From a bacterium (GTDB taxonomy: Bacteria > Verrucomicrobiota > Kiritimatiellia > RFP12 > UBA1067): a stretch of 45,456 nt of DNA. The notes under the pieces were generated by a model. That model had not been told where the DNA came from, did no database searches, and saw only the letters and a program-made list of their open reading frames with translations. The position numbers and the translations under genes were made by a program. Numbering within the stretch: position 1 is the first letter of the stretch; each line of letters begins with the position of its first letter. The DNA lies in contig JAUNMP010000013.1 of assembly GCA_030537465.1 (NCBI GenBank), forward strand, positions 1 through 45,456, written 5' to 3'. Shown here piece after piece: positions 5,752-27,344 of the stretch.

Positions 5752-5798
5752 GGCCCTCCTTCGGCACGGAAGGAGGGCCTGGCCGCCAAAGGGCGGCC
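5752..5798 (-). terminator. Tandem hairpins behind the reductase gene
   Basis: Two adjacent inverted repeats directly follow the stop codon at 5799. The first has a 7-bp stem (5781-5787 with 5792-5798). The second has a perfect 11-bp stem (5752-5762 with 5769-5779). On the minus strand the U-tract behind them is poor (GATTGCGTTTTG), so termination may be partial or the hairpins may stabilise the 3' end. Confidence 0.6.
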
Positions 5799-7415
5799 TC
5801 AGGCGGGAAGCTCGGCCTGAAGCAGGGCGCGCGCCGCACCCACGCCGCCGAGAAGCTTCACGAAGTAGGCCTCGACCTTGTCGGCGAGGGTCGTCTTCGT
5901 GAGGTCCGTGCCGAAGATGGACGCGTTCGCGAGAATCTCGCGGATCTGCCCCTTGTAGGAGGCCGGATCGTTCCACACAATGCCGTTCAGCTTCGCCTGC
6001 AGCTCGTCCTTGAGCGGATCGGCCGAGACCTCCATCGCCTCGCCCGCGTCGTTGACCGCGAGCAGATAGCGCAGCCAGCCGGCAATCGCGAGCGGAATCG
6101 CGACGAGCTCGTTCAGGTCGCGGCCAGTGGCGAGGTAGCTCTTCACCGTCTCGCCGAAACGGATGCCGACCTTCTGCGACGTGTCGGTCGCGATGCGGCG
6201 AGGATCATCCGGCATGAACGGGTTGGGCAGACGTTCGTTGACGACCTCGTCGATGAACGCCTTCGGGGAGAGGATCTTGGGATCCACGACGACGGGCAGT
6301 CCCTCGACATAGCCGAGACGCCTCACGAGGCGGACAATGTCCGCATCCTCCATCTCCTTGCAGATGAGCGTGTAGCCGAGCAGGCAACCGTACATCGACA
6401 TCGCGGTATGGAGCGGATTGAGGCAGGTCGTGACCTTCATCTTCTCCGTCATGTTCACCGTGTCGCGGTCGCAGAAGTAGACGCCCGCCTTCTCGAGCGC
6501 GGGGCGTCCGTTCGGGAACTTGTCCTCCACCACGAGGTACTGGGGCTTCTCGGCGTTGACGAAGGGCGCGATGAAGGTCTTCTTGGAGGTGATGATCGGG
6601 GCCATGCCTTCGATGCCGTCCTTCGTGAGGGACTCCTCCACCATCGGGTGGGGACGGGGCGTGATCTTGTCGATCATGGACCACGGGAACGCGACCTTCG
6701 ACTCATCCGTCAGATAGGCGATGAAACCGTCGTCGACGAAGCCGTTCGCCTTCCAGGCCTTGGCAATCTCGAGCACGGCACCCATGAGCTTTTCGCCGTT
6801 GTGCGAGCAGTTGTCCATCGAGACGACCGCCATCGGCAGCTGGCCGGCGCCATAGCGCTCGAAGAGGAGCGCGCAGACAATCGCCATCGCGTGGCGGGCG
6901 GCGGCGGGCCCCTCCTTCATGTCCGCCTCGACGACGGGCAGATAGGACCCGTCCGGCTTCTTGAGCGCATAGCCCTTCTCGGTGATCGTGAACGAGAGCA
7001 TCTTCAGGGACGGGGCGCGGAAGATCTCCACGAGGCGGGCCTTGGACGCGGCGTCCGCGAAGTTCGCCTTCACACCCTCGGCGACGCCTGCGAGCACCTC
7101 GCGCGTCGTCGTGCCGTCGGGATTGAGGAGCACGTTCAGCGTGAGGCTGTCGTGCGCCGTGTAGATCTGGTCGATGATGTCGTAGTCGAAGGTGTCGCAC
7201 GCGATGATGCCGGTCTTCGCCTCGCCCGCGTTCAGCAGGCGCTGGTTGAGGGAGCCGATGAAGCCGCGGAAGATGTTGCCCGCGCCAAAGTGCACCCACT
7301 CGGGGGCTGTCTTCGTCTGCGCGCGCACGGCGGCAATGTCAAATCTCGGAAGCGCGACCTTCGCGGCCGCCCAGGCATCCGCCTGCGTCAAAATGGAATC
7401 GAGAGTCAGCGTCAT
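5799..7415 (-). CDS. uxuB: Mannitol dehydrogenase-family reductase, probably fructuronate reductase
   Basis: A 538-residue polyol/uronate dehydrogenase with the nucleotide-binding start VHFGAGNIFRGF (about residues 41-52), MDNCSHNGEKL in the middle, and the catalytic region KVTTCLNPLHTAMSMYGC. This set fits long-chain mannitol/fructuronate/tagaturonate reductases, which reduce fructuronate to D-mannonate with NADH. Fructuronate is favoured over tagaturonate because the neighbouring locus handles glucuronate; the sequence does not settle this. The ATG has an AAGGAG ribosome site and its own promoter at 7441-7449. An unrelated SDR enzyme at 9666-10517 is predicted to do the same reaction. Confidence 0.85.
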   Translation of the reverse strand: MTLTLDSILTQADAWAAAKVALPRFDIAAVRAQTKTAPEWVHFGAGNIFRGFIGSLNQRLLNAGEAKTGIIACDTFDYDIIDQIYTAHDSLTLNVLLNPDGTTTREVLAGVAEGVKANFADAASKARLVEIFRAPSLKMLSFTITEKGYALKKPDGSYLPVVEADMKEGPAAARHAMAIVCALLFERYGAGQLPMAVVSMDNCSHNGEKLMGAVLEIAKAWKANGFVDDGFIAYLTDESKVAFPWSMIDKITPRPHPMVEESLTKDGIEGMAPIITSKKTFIAPFVNAEKPQYLVVEDKFPNGRPALEKAGVYFCDRDTVNMTEKMKVTTCLNPLHTAMSMYGCLLGYTLICKEMEDADIVRLVRRLGYVEGLPVVVDPKILSPKAFIDEVVNERLPNPFMPDDPRRIATDTSQKVGIRFGETVKSYLATGRDLNELVAIPLAIAGWLRYLLAVNDAGEAMEVSADPLKDELQAKLNGIVWNDPASYKGQIREILANASIFGTDLTKTTLADKVEAYFVKLLGGVGAARALLQAELPA

Positions 7416-7440
7416 TGTTTGTCTCCTTTTTTCTGCAAAG

Positions 7441-7449
7441 ATTATAGCA
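7441..7449 (-). promoter_or_regulatory. Extended -10 promoter for the fructuronate reductase gene
   Basis: The minus strand reads ATTTGCTATAATC, a perfect TATAAT with the TGn extension. No good -35 is seen at 17 bases, as expected for an extended -10. The predicted leader is about 19 bases. The same TTTGCTATAAT core recurs at 20508 and 33410. Confidence 0.75.
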
Positions 7450-7489
7450 AATATTACCCCGAGTCGGCATTAAACACCACCTGCAGCGC

Positions 7490-9652
7490 TCATGGGCACC
7501 GAGTCCCCTTTCGGGCTCCGCCATCGACCACACTCCGCAATATGTCCTGAACCATCGCACTCAGCCCTGTGTAGGGATACTTGAGGTCGCGGTCGTACCA
7601 GTGCGCCCATTTGCCCTTGTTGTATTCGCGGTCAAGCGCGTCACGCGCACGAGAGGACTCGAGGGCCAGCTCGAGATGGCGCTTCACCGCAGCAGCGTTT
7701 CCTTCCTCCCGCGCGGTCGCCGCCAGCGTCAGCTCCGCGAGACACGTCGAGGCATGGCGCATAAAATCTGCGGGATACCGCAACCGCTCGAAAAGCTGCC
7801 GACGTTCCCCGTCCGTCATCTTCTCCTCCGCATACGCGATCTGGTCGAGGCAGCGCGCGAATCCGGCCGCCTGCGCCGAGGCCCGCGCCGCATAGCGCGT
7901 CCAGTCGCGGAGATACGGGAACATGTCCTGGTTGACACGGTCGTGAGCCTTCGCCGAGACATCCGTGAGCGCGTCCGGATCCACCACATAGCCGCCATTC
8001 ACGGCCGAGGGTGCCATCTTCGACTTCTGCCGCAGACGGCTGATCATGCTCTTCAACTGCGCATAGAGAACACCGTCGTTCAGGAGCGGCAGAGGCGCAC
8101 GTTCGCGCGGCGAACCATAGGATGAAATCGTATCGCGCGAAAGTTCCGTTTCATAGGCGGCAAAGTAGAGTTCGAAGGCGCGCGCCGCCGCCTTCGCGCC
8201 CGCACCGAAGCGCACCGCGCTCCAGCGCGTGAGATGGTCCGCGGAATTGAATCGTCCGCCATCCCGCACCAGCTCCGCCGCCGCGTCGAGCGTAAAGAGA
8301 AACGGCCGCACGTTCGAGACGTTGAAGAGAATGAAGTCCCGTGCGCCCTTCTGCCACGCATCCAGAACAACCTGCCGCGTCCGCTCCGGTGGGACGAGTT
8401 CGCACCAGTGGTTGCCGTGGACAACGGCCAGGTGGTAGTAGAGACCGTAGGGGCGTTCCGCCGGCAGCGTCTTGGCGCCGCCGAGATCCGGCTGGAACTT
8501 CAGTCCCGGGCTGTTGTCCGAGAAGACCACGATCGTCCCCTTCGGAATCTCCAGTAGCCCCTTGCGGTAGAAGTCCGCCCCTTCCATCCAGAGTTGCGTC
8601 GCGGAAAGGAAGTCATCCGACCCGGTTGCCTCCCGGATCATTTCCGCCTGCTCGCGCATCGCCTGCGAGATGAGACCCGCCCGGCGGCGATCCTCCTCCG
8701 AGGACTCCTCGCCCCAGTCACGCCAGCCGCCGCCCGGCTTCAGCAGCGCCCAGAACGGACGATCCCTGCGGCCGCGGAGCCCAAGCTGCCAGATGACATC
8801 CGGGACCTTCGCCCATTCGCCGATGTAGGTCTTCCACGCCTTGCGCCAGAGATCCGGATGCGACGCGAATGTCGTGTCTTTCATCTCCGGAAAATGCAAA
8901 TCGAGGAAAAGCGCGCCCGCACCGACGGGCTCCTGATGGTGCATCGTGATGTAGAGCCCGCGCGCGGACGCGACATCGACAAGACGCTTCTCGTCCGGAT
9001 TGAGGATGTCGACATAGCTCGCGCAGACCATGAGATTGAAGCCTGCGCGCACGGCGGCCTCATAGATTTTGTCCGCCAGCTTCGGACCAAAGCACACGTG
9101 ATAGAGTGGATAGTTGATCCGACGAGTGCCGTTCTCCTCGCGATGGAATCCGTTCAAGAAATCCTCGTCGTTGACGAACCAGCCGCGGAACTTGAACGCG
9201 GGATCGCCCTGCCGGATCGAGATGCCGGACTTCCATTCGCGGCTGGAGGACCTTTCAGGCTCACGACCGCTCCAGAAGTAGAACGGATCGACGCCGAGGC
9301 ACTCGCTCGCGAATCGGTAGAGACCGAACATCACGCCCCGGTCGTCCGATCCCGCGATTTTGAGCACGTTGCCCGGCCGCGTCTCGAGCGCATAGTTCTC
9401 CCATCCGCTCCCTTCGCGCGTCAGGACGATCGCGTTGCCCGCTGGCGCCGCATTCCCGCATCGAATCTCCGGACGCACGCCGAAGATCTTCTCGAGATCC
9501 CCGGCGACGTCCTGTGCCGCCTTCAGTACGAACGGACGGAACTCGCCCTGCAGGCACAGCACGGGAACGCGCTCCGAACGGATGGCAAATGGTTCCGCCG
9601 CACCCGCCCAAAGTCCCAGTGCGCAAACCGCCACCAGCACCTGCAGTTTCAT
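7490..9652 (-). CDS. Secreted GH115-like glycoside hydrolase (putative xylan alpha-glucuronidase)
   Basis: A 720-residue exported protein that resembles glycosyl hydrolase family 115, whose known members remove glucuronate or 4-O-methylglucuronate from xylan side chains. The GH115-like landmarks are RGWFVNDED (about 156-164), GLRGRRDRPFW, IVVFSDNSPGL, YYHLAVVHGNHW and FNVSNVRPF, in the usual order. It is shorter than typical GH115 proteins of 800-1000 residues and may lack a C-terminal domain. I chose the ATG at 9652, which starts the signal peptide MKLQVLVAVCALGLWAGAAEP behind AAGGGGG/GGAG, over the GTG seven codons earlier. It would release the glucuronate used by the neighbouring enzymes. 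Substrate is inferred. Confidence 0.75.
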   Translation of the reverse strand: MKLQVLVAVCALGLWAGAAEPFAIRSERVPVLCLQGEFRPFVLKAAQDVAGDLEKIFGVRPEIRCGNAAPAGNAIVLTREGSGWENYALETRPGNVLKIAGSDDRGVMFGLYRFASECLGVDPFYFWSGREPERSSSREWKSGISIRQGDPAFKFRGWFVNDEDFLNGFHREENGTRRINYPLYHVCFGPKLADKIYEAAVRAGFNLMVCASYVDILNPDEKRLVDVASARGLYITMHHQEPVGAGALFLDLHFPEMKDTTFASHPDLWRKAWKTYIGEWAKVPDVIWQLGLRGRRDRPFWALLKPGGGWRDWGEESSEEDRRRAGLISQAMREQAEMIREATGSDDFLSATQLWMEGADFYRKGLLEIPKGTIVVFSDNSPGLKFQPDLGGAKTLPAERPYGLYYHLAVVHGNHWCELVPPERTRQVVLDAWQKGARDFILFNVSNVRPFLFTLDAAAELVRDGGRFNSADHLTRWSAVRFGAGAKAAARAFELYFAAYETELSRDTISSYGSPRERAPLPLLNDGVLYAQLKSMISRLRQKSKMAPSAVNGGYVVDPDALTDVSAKAHDRVNQDMFPYLRDWTRYAARASAQAAGFARCLDQIAYAEEKMTDGERRQLFERLRYPADFMRHASTCLAELTLAATAREEGNAAAVKRHLELALESSRARDALDREYNKGKWAHWYDRDLKYPYTGLSAMVQDILRSVVDGGARKGTRCP

Positions 9653-9665
9653 CGCTCCAGCCCCC

Positions 9666-10517
9666 TTAGACACCCGCGCTTGCGAGGAAGCCGCCGTCGA
9701 CGGGGACCGTGATGCCCGTCACGAAACCGGCCTTCTCGTCGTCCAGAAGCCATTCGACGCAGCCGAGCAGTTCCGGAGCCTCTCCGAAACGTCCCGCAGG
9801 CGTGTGGTGGATGACCTGCTGGCCGCGCGGCGAGAATCCTCCATCCGGCGTCATCAGATACTGCTTGGAGCGCTCGTTCACGAAGAAGCCCGGCGCGACC
9901 GCGTTCACGCGGACCTTCGCAGGCGCCATGTACTGGGCGAAGAACATCGTCCAGTTGGCGATCGCCGCCTTGCTCATCGCATAGGGGGCGACGCGCGTGA
10001 GCGGACGGTAGGTGTTCATCGAGCCGAAGTTCAGGATCGAACCGCCACCGGAGACGGCCATCTGCTTGCCGAACACCTTGCTCGGGATGACCGTGCCGAT
10101 CGTGTTGATCTCAAGCACGCTCTTGAACGCGGCCATGTCGATGTCCCAGAAGCCGCGGTCCTTGTCGAAGTCCGTCGTGGGCGTCAGGTCCGCCTCGCTG
10201 TAGCGAAGACGCGAGGGCATCGCCTTCACGTTGTTCCCGCCGGCGCCGTTCACGAGGAACTTGCACGGGCCCCACTCCTTCAGCACGCGGTCGGCGATGT
10301 CCTGGATCGCCGCCTCGTCGGTGACATCCGCCGGCTCGATGCGGCAGACGCCGCCCTTCGCCGTGATCTCGGCCGCGGTCTTCTCGAGCTTGGACGCGGT
10401 GCGTCCAATGAGGACGACCTTCGCGCCCTTCTCCGCCAGATCGATGGCGATGCAGCTGCAGAGCGTCCCGCCCGCGCCCGTCACGACGGCAACCTTGTTT
10501 TCACAGAAAGTGGCCAT
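9666..10517 (-). CDS. SDR-family mannonate/fructuronate oxidoreductase
   Basis: A 283-residue short-chain dehydrogenase with the cofactor motif TGAGGTLCS (13-21) and the catalytic S166, Y179 and K183 (YAMSK). The C-terminal PVDGGFLASAG closes the fold. Its sequence resembles the SDR type of D-mannonate oxidoreductase found in Bacillus-type uronate clusters, which converts fructuronate to mannonate. The ATG at 10517 sits behind AAGGAGAGAG; a longer open frame upstream overlaps the previous gene and is not needed. The stop of the glycosidase gene overlaps this ribosome site, so the two are probably translationally linked. Substrate is inferred from context. Confidence 0.8.
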   Translation of the reverse strand: MATFCENKVAVVTGAGGTLCSCIAIDLAEKGAKVVLIGRTASKLEKTAAEITAKGGVCRIEPADVTDEAAIQDIADRVLKEWGPCKFLVNGAGGNNVKAMPSRLRYSEADLTPTTDFDKDRGFWDIDMAAFKSVLEINTIGTVIPSKVFGKQMAVSGGGSILNFGSMNTYRPLTRVAPYAMSKAAIANWTMFFAQYMAPAKVRVNAVAPGFFVNERSKQYLMTPDGGFSPRGQQVIHHTPAGRFGEAPELLGCVEWLLDDEKAGFVTGITVPVDGGFLASAGV

Positions 10518-10528
10518 TTTCTCTCTCC

Positions 10529-12148
10529 TTACCAGAACTTGAACCAGCACGTGGACATCATCGGGATGTTCGCGCGCTCCGTCAGCACACACGGGGAGTC
10601 GTAGACCGGCACGTTGTGGAACGTGATGACCGTCGGACCGACCACCTGGTTCTCTGCCGGGAATTCATAGACGCGGCCCGTGAAGAGGTCCACCCACACG
10701 GGATCCTTGAACGCCTTCATGTGTTCGCCCGTCAGCGTGAAAACGCCGGGACGCGTCGCGAAGCAGTCGCCCGGACGCTCGAACTTGAGGAGCTTGCGGC
10801 CATCGCGCGTGAGCGTGCCGTCGGCCGGACGCGCCTTGGCGGCGTTCTCCGCCTGCTTGGCCTTCTCATCCTTGTTCAGATAGGTGTAGTCGCGGCCGTG
10901 CGTCCAGAAGACGAACAGGTTGGACCCGTCGTTCTTGATGTAGTGGTAGGTGGAGAGCGAACCGTCGTCCGTGCCGAAGCCCGCCCGATGGTGTGAGTCC
11001 TTCACGCGCGTCAGCGTGTCGTCGAAGACGCTGACGACGTTCTGCACGGCGTAATAGGAGCGCTTGATGCCGATGACCTGCTTGTCCTCGTTCGCGCGGA
11101 TGAGGCCCTTGTTGTTCATGCCGCGCTGAACGCCCTTGCCCTCGTGGCGGAAGTCGCAGATCGTGTAGACGCTCGACGGCACGTCGTGGCCGAGATCGCC
11201 CAGCATGCGGCGCATGTCCCACTTCGCCTGGGAGTACTCGCTCCAGGCGATGTTCGCAAGCGCGAAGTTGTCCGTGCGCATCTCGCTCGGGCATCCGTTC
11301 TCGCCCTGCCACATCGTGGCATGGGGCGCATACTTCGCGAGCGCGGCCTTGAGCTTCTCGACGTTGGCGTAGGACTGCTCGGGAGCCGGCGTGTAGCCGT
11401 GGTAGATGAAGTTCTTGAAGAGGCCAACCTGGTCGCCCAGGCCCTTCAGGCAGTCCTCGAAGAAAATCGGGCTCGAGGTCGCGAGCGAAAGGCCGGTGAT
11501 CTCGGCGTCGGGGATGTTCTTCTTGACGATCTTCGCCGTGCGGATGTTGAAGACGGCGATCTGTTCGGGCGTCTTCTTGCCGGAACCGTCGTAGGGCGCG
11601 ATGTCGGGCTCATTCCACATCAGCCACTTGTTGACGCGGCCGGCAAAGTGCTTCGTGATCGCATCCACCCAGGCGTCCCAGCCCGCGAGGCCCTCCTCGC
11701 TCGTGGGGAAGCCGCCGGCGAGGTCCTGCGATCCGCCGCCATTGTAGATGGGGTTGCCATACGAGGTCTCGATGGCGCAGTCCACGCCCTCGGCGCGCAG
11801 CGTATCCACGATATGGTCGAGCCAGGCAAAATCATATTTGCCCTTCTCCTTCTCGCACTTGGCCCAGCCGCCCTGAAGGCGGACCAGCTTGATGCCGAGC
11901 GGCGCGACGTGTTCCTTGTACTCGTCGAAGTTCATGTAGTCGCGGTCGAGTATCTCGCAGCCGAGACGCCAGTTCTGCCCGTGGATCTCGCTCACGCCCC
12001 GGGGACGAATCGTTCCAATGCGCTTCAGGTCAACCGACAGCGGCGTCTTCACGCGGTCCGGGGAGGTGTCGCGCTGGACGTTGTGCACGCCCGCCGAGCA
12101 CGTCACGGCCGCGCCCAGGGCGGCCAGCATCATCATTTCACGCTTCAT
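10529..12148 (-). CDS. Secreted clan GH-A glycosidase (GH39/GH5-like)
   Basis: A 539-residue exported TIM-barrel glycosidase. A signal peptide (MKREMMMLAALGAAVTCSA) starts at the ATG at 12148, behind GAAGGTACCTGT. The retaining clan-A signature is clear: the acid/base E180 in LMWNEPD and the probable nucleophile E283 in MWQGENG. The region between about residues 60 and 380 forms the barrel, and a beta-rich C-terminal part follows. Its place between uronate isomerase and mannonate oxidoreductase suggests a hemicellulose or glucuronic-acid-bearing substrate. The exact family and linkage cannot be fixed by eye. Confidence 0.75.
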   Translation of the reverse strand: MKREMMMLAALGAAVTCSAGVHNVQRDTSPDRVKTPLSVDLKRIGTIRPRGVSEIHGQNWRLGCEILDRDYMNFDEYKEHVAPLGIKLVRLQGGWAKCEKEKGKYDFAWLDHIVDTLRAEGVDCAIETSYGNPIYNGGGSQDLAGGFPTSEEGLAGWDAWVDAITKHFAGRVNKWLMWNEPDIAPYDGSGKKTPEQIAVFNIRTAKIVKKNIPDAEITGLSLATSSPIFFEDCLKGLGDQVGLFKNFIYHGYTPAPEQSYANVEKLKAALAKYAPHATMWQGENGCPSEMRTDNFALANIAWSEYSQAKWDMRRMLGDLGHDVPSSVYTICDFRHEGKGVQRGMNNKGLIRANEDKQVIGIKRSYYAVQNVVSVFDDTLTRVKDSHHRAGFGTDDGSLSTYHYIKNDGSNLFVFWTHGRDYTYLNKDEKAKQAENAAKARPADGTLTRDGRKLLKFERPGDCFATRPGVFTLTGEHMKAFKDPVWVDLFTGRVYEFPAENQVVGPTVITFHNVPVYDSPCVLTERANIPMMSTCWFKFW

Positions 12149-12181
12149 ACAGGTACCTTCTTTCTCTTTTAAATCCAAATG

Positions 12182-13285
12182 TCAGACAGCGGCAACCAGC
12201 GCCTTGGAATTGCGGTAGCAGATGTTCTCCAGGATGGGACGGATCAACCCCGGATCGTCGGGGAAGTCACCGACGGCGATCTTCTCCGCCGTCCAGCGGC
12301 AGAGGATGCGGCGGAAGTAGTCGTGCCGAACGAACGAGAGAAGCGAACGGGAGTCCGTCGTCATTCCCACGAACGTGGAGAGCACGCCGTAGGCAGCATT
12401 CTTCTCCAGCACGTCGAGAATGCCCTCTTGGTGGTCGCACCACCACCAGGCCGGCCCCAGCTGGACCTTGCCCGGCTTGCCCGCCTCGTTGAAACTGCCC
12501 GCCAGCACCGCCAGCTGCGCATGGGCCTCGGGATTGAGGGAGAGGAGAATCGTCCGCGGCAGCACGCCGTCCCCCTCCAGCGCATTCAGCAGACGCGCGA
12601 CGATCTGCGGATCAACCGGGGCACGCATGCCCGCGTAGCCTCCGGCGGGGCCCGCGGCCACGCGCAGGCGGTCACTCGTCTGGCGCAGGGCGCCGAGATG
12701 CAACAGCATCGTCCAGCCGTGTCTCACGGCGAAGGTTGCCGCATCGCGCACCGACTGCATCATTTCCGGTTCCGAAAGTCGCGCCACATCGTCGATGGAG
12801 ATATCCAGCACACGGCCACCGCGCGCGTGGACACGCTCCATAGCGGCAACTTCGACCGGATCCCCTGCGTTCATGCGGTAACCGGGGTCGAAGTACTCGA
12901 CCCTGAAGGCGTTGAGCATCTTCCGCGGCGTCCAGGCGGAGAGAGAGACATTCGCGCCCGCTCCCCGCAGGTAGACCGCCTCGTCGAAACCAAGAAAAAC
13001 AAGCTCCATCTTCGCCCAGGCGAAAATCGGATTGCCGACGAGTTTGGGCAGGGTCCGCATCCAGGCGGACCACTTCTCCGTCTCAGGGACGTCGCCCGTG
13101 ATCAGCTCCTCGCGTTCGCCACAGATGCGCATGGCACGGTGCTTGTAGGGGTCGGCCTTCACCCACACCTCGTAGAGCGAGCCGAGGGGTCGGTTCGCCG
13201 CGATCCAGTCGAGGTCGAGATGATTGTGCCAGTCGATGACCGGCAAATCCTTCACCCACGAATAAAGTTCGTCATACGTCAGCAT
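12182..13285 (-). CDS. uxaC: Uronate isomerase, unusually short
   Basis: Isomerises glucuronate to fructuronate (or galacturonate to tagaturonate), the first cytoplasmic step of uronate breakdown. The N-terminal metal motif is WHNHL (H20, H22), followed by LYEVWVKADPYKHRAMR. The C-terminal half has LHLGALR, LSLNPEAHAQLAVLAGSF, LGPAWWWCDHQEGI and GMTTDSRSLLSFVRHDYFRR, all characteristic of the family. The protein has only 367 residues against roughly 430-470. The segment that normally holds the TTDDP and RPD motifs is missing between about residues 135 and 190, without a frameshift. It starts 9 bases behind the symporter stop. Confidence 0.88.
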   Translation of the reverse strand: MLTYDELYSWVKDLPVIDWHNHLDLDWIAANRPLGSLYEVWVKADPYKHRAMRICGEREELITGDVPETEKWSAWMRTLPKLVGNPIFAWAKMELVFLGFDEAVYLRGAGANVSLSAWTPRKMLNAFRVEYFDPGYRMNAGDPVEVAAMERVHARGGRVLDISIDDVARLSEPEMMQSVRDAATFAVRHGWTMLLHLGALRQTSDRLRVAAGPAGGYAGMRAPVDPQIVARLLNALEGDGVLPRTILLSLNPEAHAQLAVLAGSFNEAGKPGKVQLGPAWWWCDHQEGILDVLEKNAAYGVLSTFVGMTTDSRSLLSFVRHDYFRRILCRWTAEKIAVGDFPDDPGLIRPILENICYRNSKALVAAV

Positions 13286-13294
13286 GGCATTCCC

Positions 13295-14743
13295 TCATCT
13301 ACCTTCCAGCTCGCGGAAAATGCCGTCCTTGCCCTCCTGCTCGCGCGCTGAGGTCGGACACAGCCAACCACAGGCGAGATACGCGAGGAGGCACGCCGCG
13401 ACCTGCCAGACGGTCGCCCACTCCCAGGGGAGCTTCACGGCCACGTTGAAGACGAGCCCCGCCGCGACGCCCGCGATGATGCAGGCGTAGACGCCCGCCG
13501 TGTTCGGACGCTTCCAGAGAATGCCGAAGACGCTCGGAATCACGATCGGGACCCCGAAGAGCCCCATCAGCAGCTTGTTCGCCTCAAACGCTCCACCGAG
13601 CGCGCTGACGAACTGCGAACCGATCGCCACCAGCAACGCAACCGCGACCATTCCCAGCCGCCCAACCAGCAACATCTCCCGTCCCTCCGCCTGCGGACGA
13701 ATCAGACGCTGGTAGATGTCCTTCGAGAACACGCTCGACGTCACATTGAACTCCGAGGCCAGCGTCGAAAGCGTGGCCGCGAGCATGGCAGACACCATCA
13801 ACCCCAGCGCGCCCGGCGGCAGCAACTTCGTGCAGAGCGTGAGATAGGCCTCCTCCGGGTTGATGCCCGGCAACAGATGACGAGCCGCAATAGCGGGCAA
13901 CAGCGCCACCACGGGGAAGAGCAGCAGCAGCAACGCCGTGAGCAGCCCCATCTTGATCGCGCTCCTCTCGTCGGGGACGCTCTCAAGACGCTGGATAAAC
14001 GCCCAGTTTCCGTTGTACTTGATGAAGACGATCAGATAGTAGGCGAAAAGGAAGATGAAGGATCCACGATGCCCGTTGAAGGCATTGAAATGATCGGGCA
14101 GCGCCTGGGTCAATGCGCCGAGTCCGCCTGCAGCGTTGAGCGACATGAAGAGCATGGCGACCGCGGCGGTAAAGAGGATCGTGCATTGGATCACGTCCGT
14201 CACCAGCACGCTCCAGAGGCCGCCCGTGAGCGTGTAGGTGAGCACGATGGCGACCCCCAGCCAAATGCCCGCGGAAAGCGGAATGCCCAACAGCACGCTT
14301 GCGATCAGGCCGAGCGAGTAGAGGCGCACCATGTTGTCCAACACGCGGAAGGCGATGCCGCACCAGCTGATGAACTGCCGCACGCCGGACCCGTAGCGGC
14401 GCTCCAGGTACTCCATCGGCGTCGTCACATGGACGCGCTGCCAACGCCACGCGAAGATCCACGATCCCGCGACAACCGCGAACACCGTGCTCCAGAAGAC
14501 GAGGATCGCGACAAGACCGTCCTGATAGGCCACGCCCGCATGCGCGATGAAGACAAACGAGCTGATCATCGCCATGTAGCTCGAGACGGCCCCCATCCAC
14601 CAAGGGACCTTCTTGCCTCCGGAGAAGAAGTCCTTGGAGCTCTTCACAAAGCGTCCCATGAAGACTCCCGTGCAGAGTGTCACCGCGAAATATACGGCGA
14701 TCACGAGAAAATCCCAGAACTGAAGTGGCGTATTAATCGTCAT
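13295..14743 (-). CDS. Sodium:solute symporter (SSS family)
   Basis: A 482-residue inner-membrane transporter with about 12-13 hydrophobic segments. SSS-family features are KDFFSGGKKVPWWMGAVSSY near the start, TTPMEYLERRYGS, TGGLWSVLVTDVIQ, and SAMLAATLSTLASEFNVTSS with the sodium-site serine/threonine cluster. These carriers bring in sugars, sialic acid or uronates with sodium. Given the flanking uronate isomerase, uronate or uronate-oligomer uptake is likely but not shown. The ATG at 14743 gives a typical N-terminus; a longer frame upstream overlaps the amidohydrolase and is rejected. Confidence 0.88.
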   Translation of the reverse strand: MTINTPLQFWDFLVIAVYFAVTLCTGVFMGRFVKSSKDFFSGGKKVPWWMGAVSSYMAMISSFVFIAHAGVAYQDGLVAILVFWSTVFAVVAGSWIFAWRWQRVHVTTPMEYLERRYGSGVRQFISWCGIAFRVLDNMVRLYSLGLIASVLLGIPLSAGIWLGVAIVLTYTLTGGLWSVLVTDVIQCTILFTAAVAMLFMSLNAAGGLGALTQALPDHFNAFNGHRGSFIFLFAYYLIVFIKYNGNWAFIQRLESVPDERSAIKMGLLTALLLLLFPVVALLPAIAARHLLPGINPEEAYLTLCTKLLPPGALGLMVSAMLAATLSTLASEFNVTSSVFSKDIYQRLIRPQAEGREMLLVGRLGMVAVALLVAIGSQFVSALGGAFEANKLLMGLFGVPIVIPSVFGILWKRPNTAGVYACIIAGVAAGLVFNVAVKLPWEWATVWQVAACLLAYLACGWLCPTSAREQEGKDGIFRELEGR

Positions 14744-14766
14744 ATCACGTATCCAATCCTGAAAAT

Positions 14767-15681
14767 CTAGGATTCGAGTCCAATGAGGCGAAGCGGATTT
14801 CCGTAGCCGATTTCCCGGCAGACGGCCTCGGAGAGTCCAATGCGTTCGCGGAGAAGCGCCATCATCTTCGCCATCGGCGCCGTCGCCCCCACCAGGCAGT
14901 TGCGGGCGGGATTCCACAGGAGACCATCAGGTTCCAGTCGAGCATGCGCTCCGCACACCTCATACTCTCCCGGCGGCATGCCCGCGGGATACTGCGCATC
15001 GGAGACGGCGATCAGGCGTTCGACCGGCACGGCGCGCGCGTAGACCTTCAGCATCGTATCCGGGAGATGATGCCCATCGGGGATGAACATCACGGAGGCA
15101 CGCTCCTCCGCCAAGGCGGTGAAGACGATGTTGTCGTGGCGGGGGATCGCATTCGGGATGCCGTTTCCGAGATGGGTGAACGCCTTTGCGCCCGCGGCCA
15201 GACAGGGTTCCACCTCCGCGGGCTTCGCCGCCAACATGTGCCCCAGCGAGACGGCAATGCCCCGAGAGGAGACCATCCGCACGAAGTCCGGCATTCCGGG
15301 GATCTCCGCGGCGACGGTGACGAGGCGGACAATCCCTCCACAGGCTTCTTGATAACGGGTGAAGAGATCGAGATCCGGCGGACGCACCCATTCAACAGGA
15401 TGCGTGCCCACCGCACCCGGTTCAGAGGAGATGAACGGTCCCTCGAGATGGACGCCCGGAATCGCCCGGGCACACGTGGCACTTGCCTCCCGGGCGGCGG
15501 CAACAACGCGCAGATTCGCGCAGACGACCTCAGGATCGCCCGTCACGAACGTCGGCAGAAACATCCCCGTGCCGTCGGCGGCGAGACGGTCCACGACCGT
15601 CTTCACCGCGGCAACGGTGAGTCCCGCGGAATTGAAGTCGACTCCCGCGTAGCCATTGACCTGGAGGTCAACCCACGCCAT
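14767..15681 (-). CDS. NagA-like amidohydrolase lacking the N-terminal beta domain
   Basis: Resembles N-acetylglucosamine-6-phosphate deacetylase, which makes glucosamine-6-phosphate and acetate. The active-site set is present: E80 in HLEGPF, H148 in SLGHM, H170 in THLGNG, H204 in DGHHLP and D228 in VSDA. At 304 residues it is about 70-80 shorter than usual, because it starts at DLQVNG and so lacks the N-terminal half of the small beta-sandwich. No GlcNAc genes are adjacent, so another N-acyl or ester sugar substrate is possible. The ATG lies 3 bases behind the LarA-family stop, which suggests coupled translation. Confidence 0.75.
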   Translation of the reverse strand: MAWVDLQVNGYAGVDFNSAGLTVAAVKTVVDRLAADGTGMFLPTFVTGDPEVVCANLRVVAAAREASATCARAIPGVHLEGPFISSEPGAVGTHPVEWVRPPDLDLFTRYQEACGGIVRLVTVAAEIPGMPDFVRMVSSRGIAVSLGHMLAAKPAEVEPCLAAGAKAFTHLGNGIPNAIPRHDNIVFTALAEERASVMFIPDGHHLPDTMLKVYARAVPVERLIAVSDAQYPAGMPPGEYEVCGAHARLEPDGLLWNPARNCLVGATAPMAKMMALLRERIGLSEAVCREIGYGNPLRLIGLES

Positions 15682-15684
15682 GTC

Positions 15685-16968
15685 TCAACCCTGGAACTTC
15701 TCGCGGTTGATCCACAGACCCAGCGCGGGATTGGGGATGAAGTAGATCTCCTCGCCGTCGACGACATTGTAGCCATACTTCAGCTTCGCGGGATCGTATT
15801 TCGCAGCCATCTCGTCGTAGTCGGCGGCCTTGAAGCCCACGCCTTCAACCTCCTCCTTCGTGATGTTCTTCACGCAGTAGGTGATCGAGAAGCGGCCGTC
15901 GGAGGAACCGTGGATCAGATGCGCGGCCGCGCCCATGTTCGCGCGCAGATCCTCGCTCTCGGGCTGGTTGAAGACCTCGAGCGTGTGGAGGCGGCCCTTG
16001 TAGCCGTACTTGCGGATGAGGCCGTCGACCGCCTTGTCCTCGCCAAACTGGTGAACGCCCGGCGCGAGGACGATGAGCTCGCCACCATCGGCCATCGCCA
16101 TGCGCGTACGGTAGACGGACTTGTTGCCGAGCCAGGTGGAGGTGAATTCGGACGGATCCAGGTACACCACGCACTTCTTGATGCCGTGCTCGACATAGTC
16201 GATGTTCTTCACCTGGGCGAGCTTAACCGCCTCCGTGAGGCAGTTACGGCCCTCGCCGATGAAGAGCCCGTGGGAATGAATCTTGCCGCCAGGCGCCGTG
16301 TTCACCGTGAGCACCCAGAGAATCGGACGCTGCGCGACGAAATGCTCGAACGCGTAGTCGAAGAGCTGACGCACGGGCGTGTGGTCGCGCCCCATCGCCT
16401 TCTCCATGCCGCACACGGCGCCGATCATGTGGGACTTGTTGATCATGTCGCTGCCGCCCACGCCCACGAAAAGGTTCTTCGCATGGTTGGCCATGCCGAT
16501 CACCTCGTGGGGGACGACCTGTCCGGGCGAAATGATGAGATCGTAGGTCTCATCCATGATACGGCGGTTGACCTCCACGGAAACGGGCTCCTTCCAGAGT
16601 CCGTCGGAGATCTTCGTCACCGCCTCCGCGGGCACCTCGCCCAGCTTGACGACATCCGTGCGCCAGCCATGCACGATCATCTTGTCGTAAGGGATGTCGG
16701 GGAACATGATTTTCCACTGCGACTCGCTCACAGGCACGTGCGTGCCGAGGGCCGGCATCACATCCACCTGGATGCCCCGCGCGGTCAGCAGCTTCCAGTA
16801 CACGCAGGTGATGAAGCCGGCATTGGAGTGGTAGCGCGTGAAGTCCGGCGGAATGATCAGCACCTTCTTGTTGGTGAAAGTGCGCCCTTCAAGGGACTGA
16901 GCAAGCGCGGAAGCGATCTCGTCGTTGGAAAGTCCAGCGTCGGTGGTGGCAGTTTTGAAGATGTCCAT
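15685..16968 (-). CDS. LarA-family nickel-pincer hydroxyacid racemase/epimerase
   Basis: LarA-type enzymes racemise or epimerise alpha-hydroxyacids with the nickel-pincer nucleotide cofactor; known members act on lactate, malate, phenyllactate and D-gluconate/D-mannonate. The 427 residues hold the key positions with the spacing of lactate racemase. H77 is in GTHVP. H154 is in VPHEV. K164, the covalent pincer lysine, lies exactly 10 residues after H154, and H180, the nickel ligand, exactly 26 after. The locus makes mannonate, so a mannonate/gluconate 2-epimerase role is inferred. The ATG at 16968 follows a 7-bp repeat array and has no clear ribosome site; a TTG four codons upstream is possible. 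The lar cofactor genes are not in the window. Confidence 0.85.
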   Translation of the reverse strand: MDIFKTATTDAGLSNDEIASALAQSLEGRTFTNKKVLIIPPDFTRYHSNAGFITCVYWKLLTARGIQVDVMPALGTHVPVSESQWKIMFPDIPYDKMIVHGWRTDVVKLGEVPAEAVTKISDGLWKEPVSVEVNRRIMDETYDLIISPGQVVPHEVIGMANHAKNLFVGVGGSDMINKSHMIGAVCGMEKAMGRDHTPVRQLFDYAFEHFVAQRPILWVLTVNTAPGGKIHSHGLFIGEGRNCLTEAVKLAQVKNIDYVEHGIKKCVVYLDPSEFTSTWLGNKSVYRTRMAMADGGELIVLAPGVHQFGEDKAVDGLIRKYGYKGRLHTLEVFNQPESEDLRANMGAAAHLIHGSSDGRFSITYCVKNITKEEVEGVGFKAADYDEMAAKYDPAKLKYGYNVVDGEEIYFIPNPALGLWINREKFQG

Positions 16969-16972
16969 AGGT

Positions 16973-17014
16973 AAGTTCAAAGTTTAAGGTTCAAAGTTTC
17001 AGGTTCAAGGTTGA
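16973..17014 (+). repeat. 7-bp degenerate tandem repeat (locus B)
   Basis: Six plus-strand units in perfect phase: AAGTTCA, AAGTTTA, AGGTTCA, AAGTTTC, AGGTTCA, AGGTTGA. They fill most of the gap between the lipoprotein stop at 17025 and the LarA-family start at 16968. The orientation is opposite to loci A and C. Confidence 0.85.
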
Positions 17015-17024
17015 ATGATTGAAA

Positions 17025-18167
17025 TCATTTTCCGGGGAAGAGGGAGTGGATGGCCTTGACCACGCCTTCGCGGGGTTCACAGGCAATGCCGCCCTCCGGC
17101 AGAGCCTTAACGCCGGAACCATAGGCGATGACCTTGCCGCCACGGGCGGCGAAGGCCTTGACGGCCTTGGCGATGGTCTTGTCGCTCTTCGCGACGTCGC
17201 TGGTGACGACGAGCACGTCAATGTTGTCCATGCGACGCATGAAGATGCCGTCCTTGTCGATGAGAACAAGGTCGAAGTCCTGCTCACGGGCGAGCGCGAG
17301 GGCGGTCTCAGCCGTTGTGACACCGCTGATGCCCTTCGCGAGGAATCCGACGGAGATCGCCCGCGGCTTGCGGAAACGGGCGGGGAACTCGACATCGCTC
17401 CCCGTCACGTACTTGAACGCGGCCTTGATGATGTAAAGGGTGCTGTCCCAGTACTCCGGATGCGCCGACGTGACGAACACGCGCCCCTTGCCATAGGTGC
17501 CGCCGACGATCGCCGCGGCGCCATACATGGACTTCTTCTTGTTCAGCGCCCCCTTGAAAGTCGCCTCGGCGTCGAAGGTGCCCCAGAGCTCGAAGTTCGC
17601 GCCCTCGACCCTGTTCGTGGTGGGCCACATGAAGGGACCACCATGGTAGCGCATCACAACCGTCTTGTTCGTGATGTTCAGCGCGGACCGTCCCGCATCT
17701 GTCAGCTTGAAGCGAGGGAAGAGAAGGTCGGGCTCGGAGCCCCGGGTGTTCCACGGAATGACATTCGCACGCTTCTTGGGTCCGTCCATGAGCAGGCAGC
17801 AGCCAGCACATGTACCGATGTAGCCGCCACCCTTGCGGATGAAGTCCTTCATCTTCGCGACGCCGTTCGTGCCAAGGCTCTCAAACTCGGCCATGCTGTT
17901 GCCGCCGGGCATCACGAGCACGTCGAGGCCATCAAGACCGCCCGCGCGCACGGACGCGCCGTCGAGGAGCTTCAGCTGCATGTCGGGCGACTCTTCGACA
18001 AGGCGGAACCACTCCACCGCGCCGATGCCACCCGGACCTCTGTCGGCGTACACGCCGACCTTGAGCGTCGCCTCGCGCGGCGTCGCATGCGTGGTGGCAT
18101 CGACCTTCGTCGTCGAACAGCCGCAGAAAACGGCGACGACGAGAGCAAATCCAAGAACCCGCTTCAT
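17025..18167 (-). CDS. Lipoprotein with glutamine-amidotransferase-like (BPL_N-type) domain
   Basis: A 380-residue protein with a lipoprotein signal (MKRVLGFALVVAVFCGC, acylated Cys17 predicted). The first half has the class-I amidotransferase-like fold seen in BPL_N proteins: KVGVYADRG, LVMPGGNS, and the nucleophile-elbow cysteine in GGGYIGTCAGCC, then a later histidine in SAHPEYW. The second half (about 270-375) looks like another Rossmann-like domain (DVLVVTSD, GGKVIAYGSG). The reaction is unknown. The ATG at 18167 has an ideal AAGGAGATAG site, 10 bases behind the HAD gene; the open frame further upstream is out of the gene. It lies in the gnd operon. Confidence 0.7.
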   Translation of the reverse strand: MKRVLGFALVVAVFCGCSTTKVDATTHATPREATLKVGVYADRGPGGIGAVEWFRLVEESPDMQLKLLDGASVRAGGLDGLDVLVMPGGNSMAEFESLGTNGVAKMKDFIRKGGGYIGTCAGCCLLMDGPKKRANVIPWNTRGSEPDLLFPRFKLTDAGRSALNITNKTVVMRYHGGPFMWPTTNRVEGANFELWGTFDAEATFKGALNKKKSMYGAAAIVGGTYGKGRVFVTSAHPEYWDSTLYIIKAAFKYVTGSDVEFPARFRKPRAISVGFLAKGISGVTTAETALALAREQDFDLVLIDKDGIFMRRMDNIDVLVVTSDVAKSDKTIAKAVKAFAARGGKVIAYGSGVKALPEGGIACEPREGVVKAIHSLFPGK

Positions 18168-18177
18168 TCCTATCTCC

Positions 18178-19026
18178 TTAAGCCAGACCAAAATGTTCAA
18201 GTGCCTTGGCCACGCCGTCCTCGTCGTTCGAGCATGACACGTAGTCCGCGGCGGCAAGAACCTCGGGAGCCGCATTGGCCATCGCGACGCCAACACCGGC
18301 CGCCTCGATCATCGTAAGGTCGTTCCCGCCATCACCGAAGGAGATGCAGTTCGCAAGCGTCAGACCGAGCGATTCCGCAAACCGGCCGAGCGCGACGCCC
18401 TTGTGCGCCGTCTTCAGGTTGATTTCGATGTTGTTCCACGTCGAAGATGTGGCCTTGAGTTGGGGGAAGCGGGAGACGAGTTCCGTTTCGACCGCGTGAA
18501 GAGCCTTGGTCTCGGGATCATCCAGCCGCGAGAAGAGCATGATCTTCTGCACATCGCCGTCGTCGCGTGTGGACTCGAGATGTGCCTTCAGCTCGGGAAC
18601 GCCCCTGCGGAAGTCGGCAATCATCTTCACGTAGTGCTCGTTCGTGGCGTAGTCCGTGGACTTGTCCTTGAACGCCTGCGTCATCCAGCCCCAGTTATTG
18701 CGGTAGCAGTCGTAGATGACATCGTGGTCATCCAAGAGTCGCATCACCTCAAGCGCCGTGTCGAGGGGAATCTCCTCACGTACGAGGGCGGTGTCGGTCT
18801 CGCGGTCATAGACCTGCGCGCCGTTGATCGTGATCGCATAGCGCACGAACGGGAGGTCGCGGATGCAGGCGGGCATCATGCCGAAGAAGCGCCCCGTGGT
18901 CGGAACCACCAGGGCGCCCTTCTCGGCCGCGCGCGCCAGCGCGGCGCGGTTGACGGACGAGAGCCGCTTCTGGGAGTCCAGAAGCGTCCCGTCTAGGTCA
19001 AGTGCGATGATCTTGAGATCAGGCAT
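18178..19026 (-). CDS. Cof-type HAD-IIB sugar phosphatase
   Basis: A 282-residue cytoplasmic haloacid dehalogenase-type phosphatase. Motif I is ALDLDGTLL with nucleophile D10 and D12, motif II is PTTGR, the motif III lysine lies in LKTAHKGVAL, and motif IV is FGDGGNDLTMIEAAGVGVAM. A C2-type cap fills the middle, as in Cof proteins that dephosphorylate sugar phosphates or nucleotides. Its ATG overlaps the gnd stop by 8 bases, so translation is probably coupled. The substrate is not visible; a sugar-acid phosphate would fit the operon. Confidence 0.88.
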   Translation of the reverse strand: MPDLKIIALDLDGTLLDSQKRLSSVNRAALARAAEKGALVVPTTGRFFGMMPACIRDLPFVRYAITINGAQVYDRETDTALVREEIPLDTALEVMRLLDDHDVIYDCYRNNWGWMTQAFKDKSTDYATNEHYVKMIADFRRGVPELKAHLESTRDDGDVQKIMLFSRLDDPETKALHAVETELVSRFPQLKATSSTWNNIEINLKTAHKGVALGRFAESLGLTLANCISFGDGGNDLTMIEAAGVGVAMANAAPEVLAAADYVSCSNDEDGVAKALEHFGLA

Positions 19027-20470
19027 TGTACGTCGCCGCAGACGTGCTGCCGCCGTGGCCGGTCCAGTTCGTGTGGAAGAACTCGCCGCGCGGCTTGTCC
19101 AGGCGCTCGTAGGTGTGGGCGCCGAAGTAGTCGCGCTGGGCCTGCAACAGGTTCGCCGGGAGGCGCTCCGTGGTGTAGCCGTCGAAGTAGCTGAGCGCGC
19201 TCGTCATCGTCGGCGCGGGGATGCCGTACTGGAGCGCCGCGGCCGCGACCTGGCGCCACGCCGGGACGAGCTTCTCGATCGTCGCCTTGAAGTACGGGTC
19301 GAGGAGCAGGTTCGACAGCTGCGGGTTGTTGTCGTAGGCCTCCTTGATCTTGCCGAGGAAGACAGAGCGGATGATGCAGCCACCGCGCCACATGAGCGCG
19401 ATGCCGCCGTAGTTGAGATTCCAGTTGTAGGTCTTCGCGGCCGTGCGCATGAGCGTGTAGCCCTGCGCGTAGGAGATGATCTTGGAGGCGTAGAGGGCCT
19501 GGCGGATCGCCTCGATGAAGGCGGCCTTGTCGCCCTTGAACTCCGGCTTCGGACGCGCATAGGCCTTGGCGGCCTCGACGCGGTCGTTCTTCATTGCGGA
19601 GAGGCAACGCGCGAACACGGCCTCGCCGATGAGCGTGAGCGGCACGCCTTCGTCGAGGGCGGCGATGCCCGTCCACTTGCCCGTGCCCTTCTGGCCAGCC
19701 GTGTCGAGGATCTTCTCAACGATCGGGGAACCGTCCGTGTCCTTGAACGCGAGGATGTCGCGCGTGATCTCGATGAGGTACGAATCGAGCTCCGTGGTGT
19801 TCCACTTCTTGAAGACCTCGTGCATCTCGTCGTCGGACATGCCGAGCAGGTCGCGCATAAGCTGGTAGCTCTCGCAGATGAGCTGCATGTCGCCGTATTC
19901 GATGCCGTTGTGGACCATCTTGACAAAGTGGCCGGCACCGTTCTCGCCTACCCAGTCGCAGCAGGGGGTTCCGTCCTCGACCTTCGCGCAGATGCCCTGG
20001 AAGATGTCCTTCACGTACGGCCATGCGGCGGGCGAACCGCCCGGCATCATGGACGGCCCCTTGAGCGCGCCCTCTTCGCCGCCGGAGACGCCCGTGCCGA
20101 CATAGAGGAGGCCCTTGGACTCGACGTACTGCGTGCGGCGGATCGTGTCCGGGAAGTGGCTGTTGCCGCCATCGACGATGATGTCGCCGGGCTCAAGCAC
20201 CTTCAGAAGGTTCTCAATCATCCCGTCCACCGCGGCGCCGGCCTTGACCATCAGGAAGACCTTGCGGGGCTTCGCAAGATTCGCGGCCAGCTCCTCCAGC
20301 GAGTGGCAGCCGATGATGTTCTTGCCCTTGGCGCGGCCGTTCACGAAGGCGTCGACCTTTTCGACCGTGCGGTTGTAGCACGCCACGGTGAAACCCTTCG
20401 ACTCCATGTTCATGATGAGGTTCTCGCCCATCACGGCGAGACCGACGAGACCGATGTCAGCTTTCTGCAT
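19019..20470 (-). CDS. gnd: 6-phosphogluconate dehydrogenase, decarboxylating
   Basis: Oxidises 6-phosphogluconate to ribulose-5-phosphate and CO2 with NADP in the pentose phosphate pathway. The 483 residues have the cofactor motif GLAVMGENLIMNM (about 10-22), NRTVEK, GNSHFPDT, GTGVSGGEEGALKGP and the signature KMVHNGIEYGDMQLI with the catalytic lysine; TGKWT comes later. The length is typical. The ATG at 20470 has an AAAGGAAA site and a dedicated promoter at 20508-20536. It is the first gene of a run reaching to the GH115-like gene at 7490, which links it to sugar-acid catabolism. Confidence 0.96.
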   Translation of the reverse strand: MQKADIGLVGLAVMGENLIMNMESKGFTVACYNRTVEKVDAFVNGRAKGKNIIGCHSLEELAANLAKPRKVFLMVKAGAAVDGMIENLLKVLEPGDIIVDGGNSHFPDTIRRTQYVESKGLLYVGTGVSGGEEGALKGPSMMPGGSPAAWPYVKDIFQGICAKVEDGTPCCDWVGENGAGHFVKMVHNGIEYGDMQLICESYQLMRDLLGMSDDEMHEVFKKWNTTELDSYLIEITRDILAFKDTDGSPIVEKILDTAGQKGTGKWTGIAALDEGVPLTLIGEAVFARCLSAMKNDRVEAAKAYARPKPEFKGDKAAFIEAIRQALYASKIISYAQGYTLMRTAAKTYNWNLNYGGIALMWRGGCIIRSVFLGKIKEAYDNNPQLSNLLLDPYFKATIEKLVPAWRQVAAAALQYGIPAPTMTSALSYFDGYTTERLPANLLQAQRDYFGAHTYERLDKPRGEFFHTNWTGHGGSTSAATYNA

Positions 20471-20507
20471 GTCGTTTCCTTTCGGTGTTCTAAAATTGAC
20501 TTTTCGC

Positions 20508-20536
20508 ATTATAGCAAAATCATTGGATGCGGACAA
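20508..20536 (-). promoter_or_regulatory. Promoter of the gnd/uronate operon
   Basis: On the minus strand TTGTCC (20531-20536), a 17-base spacer and TATAAT (20508-20513) with a TGC extension (TTTTGCTATAAT) precede gnd by about 37 bases. The -35 lies inside the 3' end of the DUF4838 gene. Confidence 0.75.
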
Positions 20537-27342: not shown

Positions 27343-27344
27343 GG

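Follow-up and report, generated by a model that had tools for sequence, protein, structure and literature searches.

The isomerase route of uronate catabolism, also called the Ashwell route, runs through UxaC, UxuB, UxuA, KdgK and KdgA/Eda. An alternative, in which uronate becomes gluconate and is then consumed via 6-phosphogluconate dehydrogenase (Gnd), was proposed for Thermotoga by Rodionova 2012 (as cited in PMC6978723 and PMC7583248): gnd, uxaE, gntE and gntK belong there to one regulon, with the operon aldH-pelB-gnd-uxaRED-gntEK (PMC3750489), and the epimerase GntE2, which has been assayed, catalyses a reaction that probably lets mannonate into the pentose-phosphate pathway (PMC7583248). 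A run of eleven genes that includes gnd and a homologue of the nickel-pincer enzyme LarA is compared here with these systems. It lies on contig JAUNMP010000013.1 of assembly GCA_030537465.1, from a bacterium of the Kiritimatiellia (RFP12; UBA1067), of which we analysed positions 1 to 45,456 (the window). The initial annotation of this DNA knew of no described uronate route through a nickel-pincer epimerase, a remark that the Thermotoga proposal, the assay of GntE2 and the shared regulon overturn.

The operon probably routes xylan-derived glucuronate into the pentose-phosphate pathway via the LarA homologue, which belongs to sequence group 18 (LarAH18), a kinase and Gnd. Our best reading of the sequences is that gut Kiritimatiellota and Clostridia have a nickel-pincer uronate shunt which combines a group 18 LarA with a short-chain dehydrogenase/reductase (SDR) and a PfkB kinase linked to LarA; the concept is known, and the group 18 branch, the PfkB kinase and the spread in gut bacteria look new. 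In the galacturonate branch of Thermotoga maritima, UxaE, a mannonate/gluconate 2-epimerase of the LarA family, a kinase and gnd likewise occur, under the control of a single operon, but its LarA is of group 20, its kinase is GntK rather than PfkB, its host lineage is another, and it has in addition a co-regulated kdgA-kdgK-uxuB-uxuA operon. GntK of Thermotoga is of the FGGY type. With the isomerase route the proposed pathway shares UxaC and a mannonate-forming reductase, whereas here epimerase and Gnd would replace dehydratase and aldolase, releasing one CO2 and making pentose-phosphate. Lactobacillus suebicus likewise takes uronate through mannonate and 6-phosphogluconate to Gnd, but phosphorylates before it epimerises, by genes not identified in that report (PMC6978723). 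Such a shunt would supply a specific, testable reaction and a companion kinase for LarA group 18, the substrate of which its discoverers did not settle, and would mean that many bacteria of the rumen and gut use uronate by a nickel-dependent route; its ribulose-5-phosphate product would unite the glucuronate side chains and the xylose backbone of glucuronoxylan in one pathway.

The gnd operon and its predicted nickel-pincer epimerase

The window has a G+C content of 62%; the source genome (G000) is an assembly of 5.19 Mb in 438 contigs, 91.3% complete with 3.35% contamination. The eleven genes run on the minus strand from 20470 to 5799, with intergenic gaps of -8 to +74 bp, so that the nearly gap-free run described in the initial annotation stood. 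In order of reading they are:

19019..20470, minus strand: gnd, 6-phosphogluconate dehydrogenase (TIGR00873, 759 bits; cut-off 426.7)
18178..19026, minus strand: Cof-type HAD-IIB phosphatase (TIGR00099, 167 bits; cut-off 137)
17025..18167, minus strand: BPL_N / amidotransferase-like lipoprotein (PF09825, 46 bits; cut-off 24)
15685..16968, minus strand: LarAH18, candidate nickel-pincer hexonate (mannonate/gluconate) 2-epimerase (NF052594, 616.6 bits; cut-off 500)
14767..15681, minus strand: NagA-like amidohydrolase, usual N-terminal part missing (TIGR00221, 149 bits; under the cut-off of 226)
13295..14743, minus strand: sodium:solute symporter (TIGR00813, 207.5 bits; cut-off 184)
12182..13285, minus strand: UxaC-like uronate isomerase, shortened (PF02614, 280 bits; cut-off 25)
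10529..12148, minus strand: GH42/GH39-like glycoside hydrolase (PF02449, 29 bits, cut-off 21; PF01229, 23 bits, under the cut-off of 26)
9666..10517, minus strand: SDR D-mannonate oxidoreductase (NF006132, 313 bits; cut-off 281)
7490..9652, minus strand: GH115 alpha-glucuronidase-like protein (PF15979, 157 bits; cut-off 27)
5799..7415, minus strand: mannitol-dehydrogenase-family oxidoreductase (PF08125, 74 bits, and PF01232, 63.5 bits, both above cut-off)

The LarA homologue falls in the curated family of nickel-dependent putative hexonate epimerases (group 18). In Lactobacillus plantarum LarA the residues R75, K184 and H200 bind the nickel-pincer nucleotide and D72, H108, H174 and K298 are catalytic (PMC7583248, whose numbering we follow). 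Mapped through an alignment with 4NAR, the equivalents of all seven are intact in LarAH18, as D46, R49, H81, H158, K168, H184 and K287 (numbered from the open reading frame start at 16980), in agreement with the initial annotation, which had credited the enzyme with all pincer residues; they are likewise present in all 110 relatives' loci compared below (107 distinct). Group 18 retains the E-V loop of groups 19 and 20, and four residues before the catalytic lysine LarAH18 has a tryptophan that we take to be the one named for groups 18 to 20 in PMC7583248. Groups 19 and 20 (GntE1 and GntE2) have been assayed as mannonate/gluconate epimerases; for group 18 the same survey's authors only hypothesised a hexonate, leaving open which one (PMC7583248). 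LarAH18 thus shares with GntE1 and GntE2 the cofactor and catalytic residues and the E-V/S loop, but is a distinct sequence group: its sole solved relative at E 0.001 (phmmer) is 4NAR, the Thermotoga enzyme named GntE2 in PMC7583248, at just 84 bits. A eukaryotic gluconate epimerase has also been reported, in a paper whose portion considered here does not treat group 18 (PMC11770544).

Of the remaining contents listed in the initial annotation, symporter, SDR and GH115-like protein exceed their cut-offs, while the uronate isomerase is short (367 aa) and falls below the glucuronate isomerase equivalog NF002794 (228 bits; cut-off 387), which UxaC of the relative L072 passes at 608 bits. Alignment shows several internal deletions spread along the protein with the conserved blocks retained, which rules out an end-truncated UxaC; a different uronate substrate for the 12182-13285 product is possible. 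The SDR would reduce fructuronate to mannonate; two relatives score 436 and 433 bits against the same family. The mannitol-dehydrogenase-family protein reaches no NCBIfam cut-off and is a second reductase of unsure substrate.

In the route that we propose, GH115 and related hydrolases would release glucuronate, and the symporter would import uronate or oligosaccharide. The UxaC-like enzyme would convert glucuronate to fructuronate and the SDR fructuronate to D-mannonate, whose C2 LarAH18 would invert to give D-gluconate, with hydride passing to and from the nickel-pincer cofactor. A PfkB kinase encoded on another contig (C304), in a glucuronyl-esterase locus, would then form 6-phosphogluconate, which Gnd would decarboxylate to ribulose-5-phosphate. 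The individual reactions are predictions, as are the sequence of the kinase and epimerase steps and the source of the cofactor in this genome; genes, residues, linkage, co-occurrence and, in a few relatives, module exchange are observed.

Linkage of group 18 LarA to gnd and a PfkB kinase

We compared gene neighbourhoods in 110 loci: the best 80 of 548 stretches encoding a LarA relative in a scan of named genomes (named loci, 48 of which carry Bacillota names in their titles), 12 from the same family or order and 18 from the genus g77. Three pairs are the same DNA (L126/L064, L127/L063, L132/L046), which leaves 107 distinct loci. A gene counted as a neighbour if tblastn (E 1e-10, more than 60 bits) placed it on the same strand of the retrieved stretch, and the counts are lower bounds because many contigs end near LarA. 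Families were verified on representatives (SDR and UxaC of L072, UxaE of L087, kinases of L077 and L053), the rest being assigned by similarity; membership is clear where verified, at 436 bits for the L072 SDR, 608 for its UxaC and 548 for UxaE of L087 (PF16257). By record title, the nearest named LarA relatives are from gut or rumen Kiritimatiellae, Verrucomicrobia and uncultured bacteria.

In the named loci LarAH18 is accompanied by gnd in 49 of 80, by a HAD gene and a PfkB kinase in 38 each, by the SDR in 18, UxaC in nine, UxaE in six, DUF4838 in two and a mannitol-dehydrogenase-family gene in one; the Cof-type HAD phosphatase recurs between gnd and LarAH18. All 18 g77 loci have gnd and 16 have the SDR, and the 12 loci of the same family or order yielded gnd four times, the kinase once and the SDR three times. 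Chance adjacency of gnd and LarA is ruled out by this recurrence in the named and g77 loci. At six loci of gut Clostridia the SDR, PfkB kinase, Gnd, LarAH18 and UxaC lie in one run; gnd, kinase and SDR occur jointly in 11 of the 110 loci, six of which also have UxaC, L087 alone adding UxaE. Many named loci co-locate epimerase, kinase and gnd as in the Thermotoga-type GntE shunt, the kinase of G000 being on another contig. Queries with uxuA and three eda-type genes of G000 gave no tblastn match at 1e-5 across the 110 loci. GH115, NagA-like, BPL_N and GH42/39-like genes of the window type were seen in none of these loci, so that the window operon appears as a local variant built on a core that recurs; a symporter of its type was seen in one g77 locus.

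We built a profile from nine of the kinases and ran it against 387 genomes from the phylum. The matches fall into two classes, with nothing between E 1e-124 and 1e-89; since the weaker class is the one found beside uxuA in locus L176, we kept the two apart and took matches above 400 bits as the LarA-linked class. On the same grounds the possibility that this kinase is an ordinary KdgK was set aside. In counts that ignore kinship among genomes, a LarA homologue (1e-50) is present in 106 of the 114 genomes with the LarA-linked class versus 58 of the 273 without it, and a group 18 LarA over the cut-off in 92 of 114 versus 45 of 273; counted by genus, 61 of 67 with the kinase class have a LarA homologue. 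For uxuA the corresponding figures are 15 of 114 versus 79 of 273. In 27 genomes of this sample the LarA homologues, at E <=1e-50, fall under the group 18 cut-off: five appear fragment-like (E 1e-92 to 1e-141) and 22 form a second set (E 1e-51 to 1e-58), and some of these genomes carry a kinase subclass of 415-444 bits.

In the source genome the kinase lies at C304:24444-25514 and is 88% identical to that of L053, which precedes gnd; in the genus-mate G332 it directly precedes gnd. It scores well below the KdgK equivalog (NF041332, 83.8 versus 440 bits), and the LarA-linked kinase reaches no NCBIfam cut-off. Nine proteins encoded next to the kinase in G084, G282 and two g77 genomes were scanned, and none showed a uronate-pathway family. 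The surrounding C304 stretch (L174:3012-13593) is of glucuronoxylan type, with the kinase accompanied by genes for a glucuronyl esterase, a GDSL/acyl esterase and GH141-, GH39- and GH31-like proteins.

The kinase, Gnd and LarAH18 probably form an oxidative replacement module for KdgK, UxuA and Eda, UxaC and the SDR being common to both. In L176 (genome G041, with no group 18 LarA over the cut-off) the weaker kinase class, UxuA, SDR, UxaC and Eda lie in one run, while L182 and L183 (G247 and G035) hold the LarA-linked kinase, gnd, LarAH18 and UxaC together. The contrast is weakened because a divergent UxuA-like gene (29-30% identity) adjoins the kinase in G035 and G247 and, by coordinates, in G050 and G127.

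Competing readings and cofactor supply

That UxuA-like gene is one of several observations that weigh against the shunt. The initial annotation had noted the absence of mannonate dehydratase and 2-keto-3-deoxy-6-phosphogluconate (KDPG) aldolase, which holds for the operon but not for the genome: G000 has uxuA (NF003027, 480 bits), on contig C363, and three eda-type genes (PF01081) outside it. A KdgK-type kinase is likely there too, with a PfkB gene beside eda on contig C64 and another on C392 at 34% to the LarA-linked class, so the UxuA-KdgK-Eda set is probably complete as genes, on different contigs. No gnd was found in the fetched LarAH18 stretches of the same-genus genomes G084, G279 and G332 (the last a contig of 4.6 kb). 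The LarA-linked class is missing from 45 of the 137 LarAH18 genomes, eight genomes that carry it contain no LarA homologue, and the nearest solved relative of the kinase is a 2-keto-3-deoxygluconate (KDG) kinase, 2afb. The associations of kinase, LarA homologue and uxuA take no account of kinship; the same applies to the occurrence of uxuA in 19 of 137 LarAH18 genomes, G000 among them, against 75 of the 250 genomes outside that set (Fisher p 3e-4). The epimerase activity of group 18 is predicted from sequence, and searches of the G000 assembly found none of the cofactor genes larB, larC and larE. On C64 the eda-type and PfkB-type genes adjoin (L139:2999-4515), as neighbours rather than a fusion because the matches are in different frames, and are likely a KDG/KDPG pair of the ordinary route.

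One alternative is that the LarA homologue acts on another hexonate or an aldarate, with Gnd a mere neighbour and glucuronate consumed elsewhere by UxuA, KdgK and Eda. The uxuA and eda-type genes of G000 fit it, as does the openness of the group 18 substrate in the LarA survey (PMC7583248); yet gnd linkage across Bacillota and Kiritimatiellota, the full-set loci in which neither uxuA nor eda was detected, and the co-occurrence of the kinase all point to 6-phosphogluconate, and we consider it improbable. Kinase, gnd and LarAH18, close neighbours in many loci, are compatible with either order of reaction, and phosphorylation could come first: PfkB would then be a mannonate kinase and LarAH18 a 6-phosphomannonate/6-phosphogluconate 2-epimerase, as in L. 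suebicus, for which both activities were demonstrated in cell extracts with the structural genes left open (Valk 2020, PMC6978723). This order seems unlikely, though somewhat less so than a different substrate, since the related groups 19 and 20 use unphosphorylated mannonate (PMC7583248) and group 18 keeps their E-V loop. The core of the initial annotation, in which mannonate is epimerised to gluconate, phosphorylated by a kinase encoded elsewhere and consumed by Gnd, gains from the recurrent gnd-LarAH18 linkage, the six clostridial loci, the linked PfkB kinase on another contig and the swap with KdgK, UxuA and Eda in L176; it is tempered by the uxuA and eda-type genes and by the cofactor genes not found in G000.

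The last of these raises the prospect that LarA of G000 is an inactive apoprotein whose cofactor cannot be made. The larE search used a cut-off of 150 bits, which G000 does not reach, and the larB search E 1e-20. Three of three sampled genus-mates have larC and larB and two of three have larE, so that the absence from an assembly 91% complete and in 438 contigs may be a gap; a single gap is less likely because larE and larB sit on different contigs in G279 and G332, and would not explain all three missing genes. The larC query had no match in the G279 stretch around larB. With the LarAH18 residues intact, an apoprotein appears the least probable of these alternatives. Across the phylum sample larC (1e-10) is present in 111 of 137 group 18 genomes versus 126 of 250 others.

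The genus g77 presents a similar situation. Of its 19 genomes with a group 18 LarA, 15 have neither larC nor larE; 13 of these 15 have no larB match, and G094 and G382 have only sub-cut-off ones. Fourteen such genomes were fetched. Thirteen of them (L156-L168; completeness 84 to 98%) make up a single clade of the LarA tree (support 93/85), and each of these has SDR and gnd next to LarAH18; the remaining genome, G382 (76% complete), falls among genomes bearing larBCE. All 14 LarAH18 keep the seven residues. Their median pairwise Ka/Ks, with G382 counted in, is 0.065 for the 71 pairs out of 91 in which Ks is finite; this is a rough figure, since Ks mostly lies around 1 or higher. An intact LarAH18 with no detected larB, larC or larE in a 13-species clade is an apparent cofactor auxotrophy. 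We give about even chances to the idea that LarAH18 shunts can run on borrowed cofactor, the g77 clade, and perhaps G000, importing the nickel-pincer nucleotide or one of its precursors from neighbouring gut microbes, or else making it by unknown enzymes. The converse, larBCE without larA, has been published (PMC11796402); of LarA without larBCE no account was found in the literature searched, a 1,000-genome survey cited by PMC11796402 lying outside that search. In a lineage that has the enzyme but seemingly no cofactor synthesis, exchange of the nickel-pincer cofactor among microbes could be put to a direct test. The literature search also returned nothing on 'hexonate epimerase' and nothing joining Kiritimatiell-, glucuronate and 6-phosphogluconate dehydrogenase.

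Operon boundaries and flanking genes

Three further features lie at the ends of the run:

20520..22810, minus strand: DUF4838 / GH67-N protein, alpha-glucuronidase-like (PF16126, 254 bits; PF03648, 36 bits); true start not fixed
20508..20536, minus strand: promoter-like site, TTGTCC-17-TATAAT with TG before the -10 (10/12 matches)
5752..5779, minus strand: terminator-like hairpin of 11 pairs, 19 bp past the final operon gene

The promoter-like site stops 37 bp short of the gnd start, where the initial annotation had placed a promoter with gnd as lead gene. Promoter-like sites across the region number 3 versus a shuffle mean of 2.6, and terminator-like sites 13 versus 12.1; with no excess of either, only their positions are informative. 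The promoter-like site stands, but gnd is not necessarily the first gene transcribed, since the same-strand DUF4838/GH67-N gene ends 49 bp before it and may be co-transcribed. With its GH67 N-terminal-like domain, the product of this gene is possibly another alpha-glucuronidase-like enzyme of the same transcription unit.

Elsewhere in the window, 24082-25698 is a single open frame with a 4Fe-4S ferredoxin region and a TM1506/DUF1893 domain, and 26011-27348 encodes an aldo-keto reductase that ends in a 4Fe-4S ferredoxin part and belongs to a six-member cluster of similar proteins, with one member in each of six compared loci, the window included.

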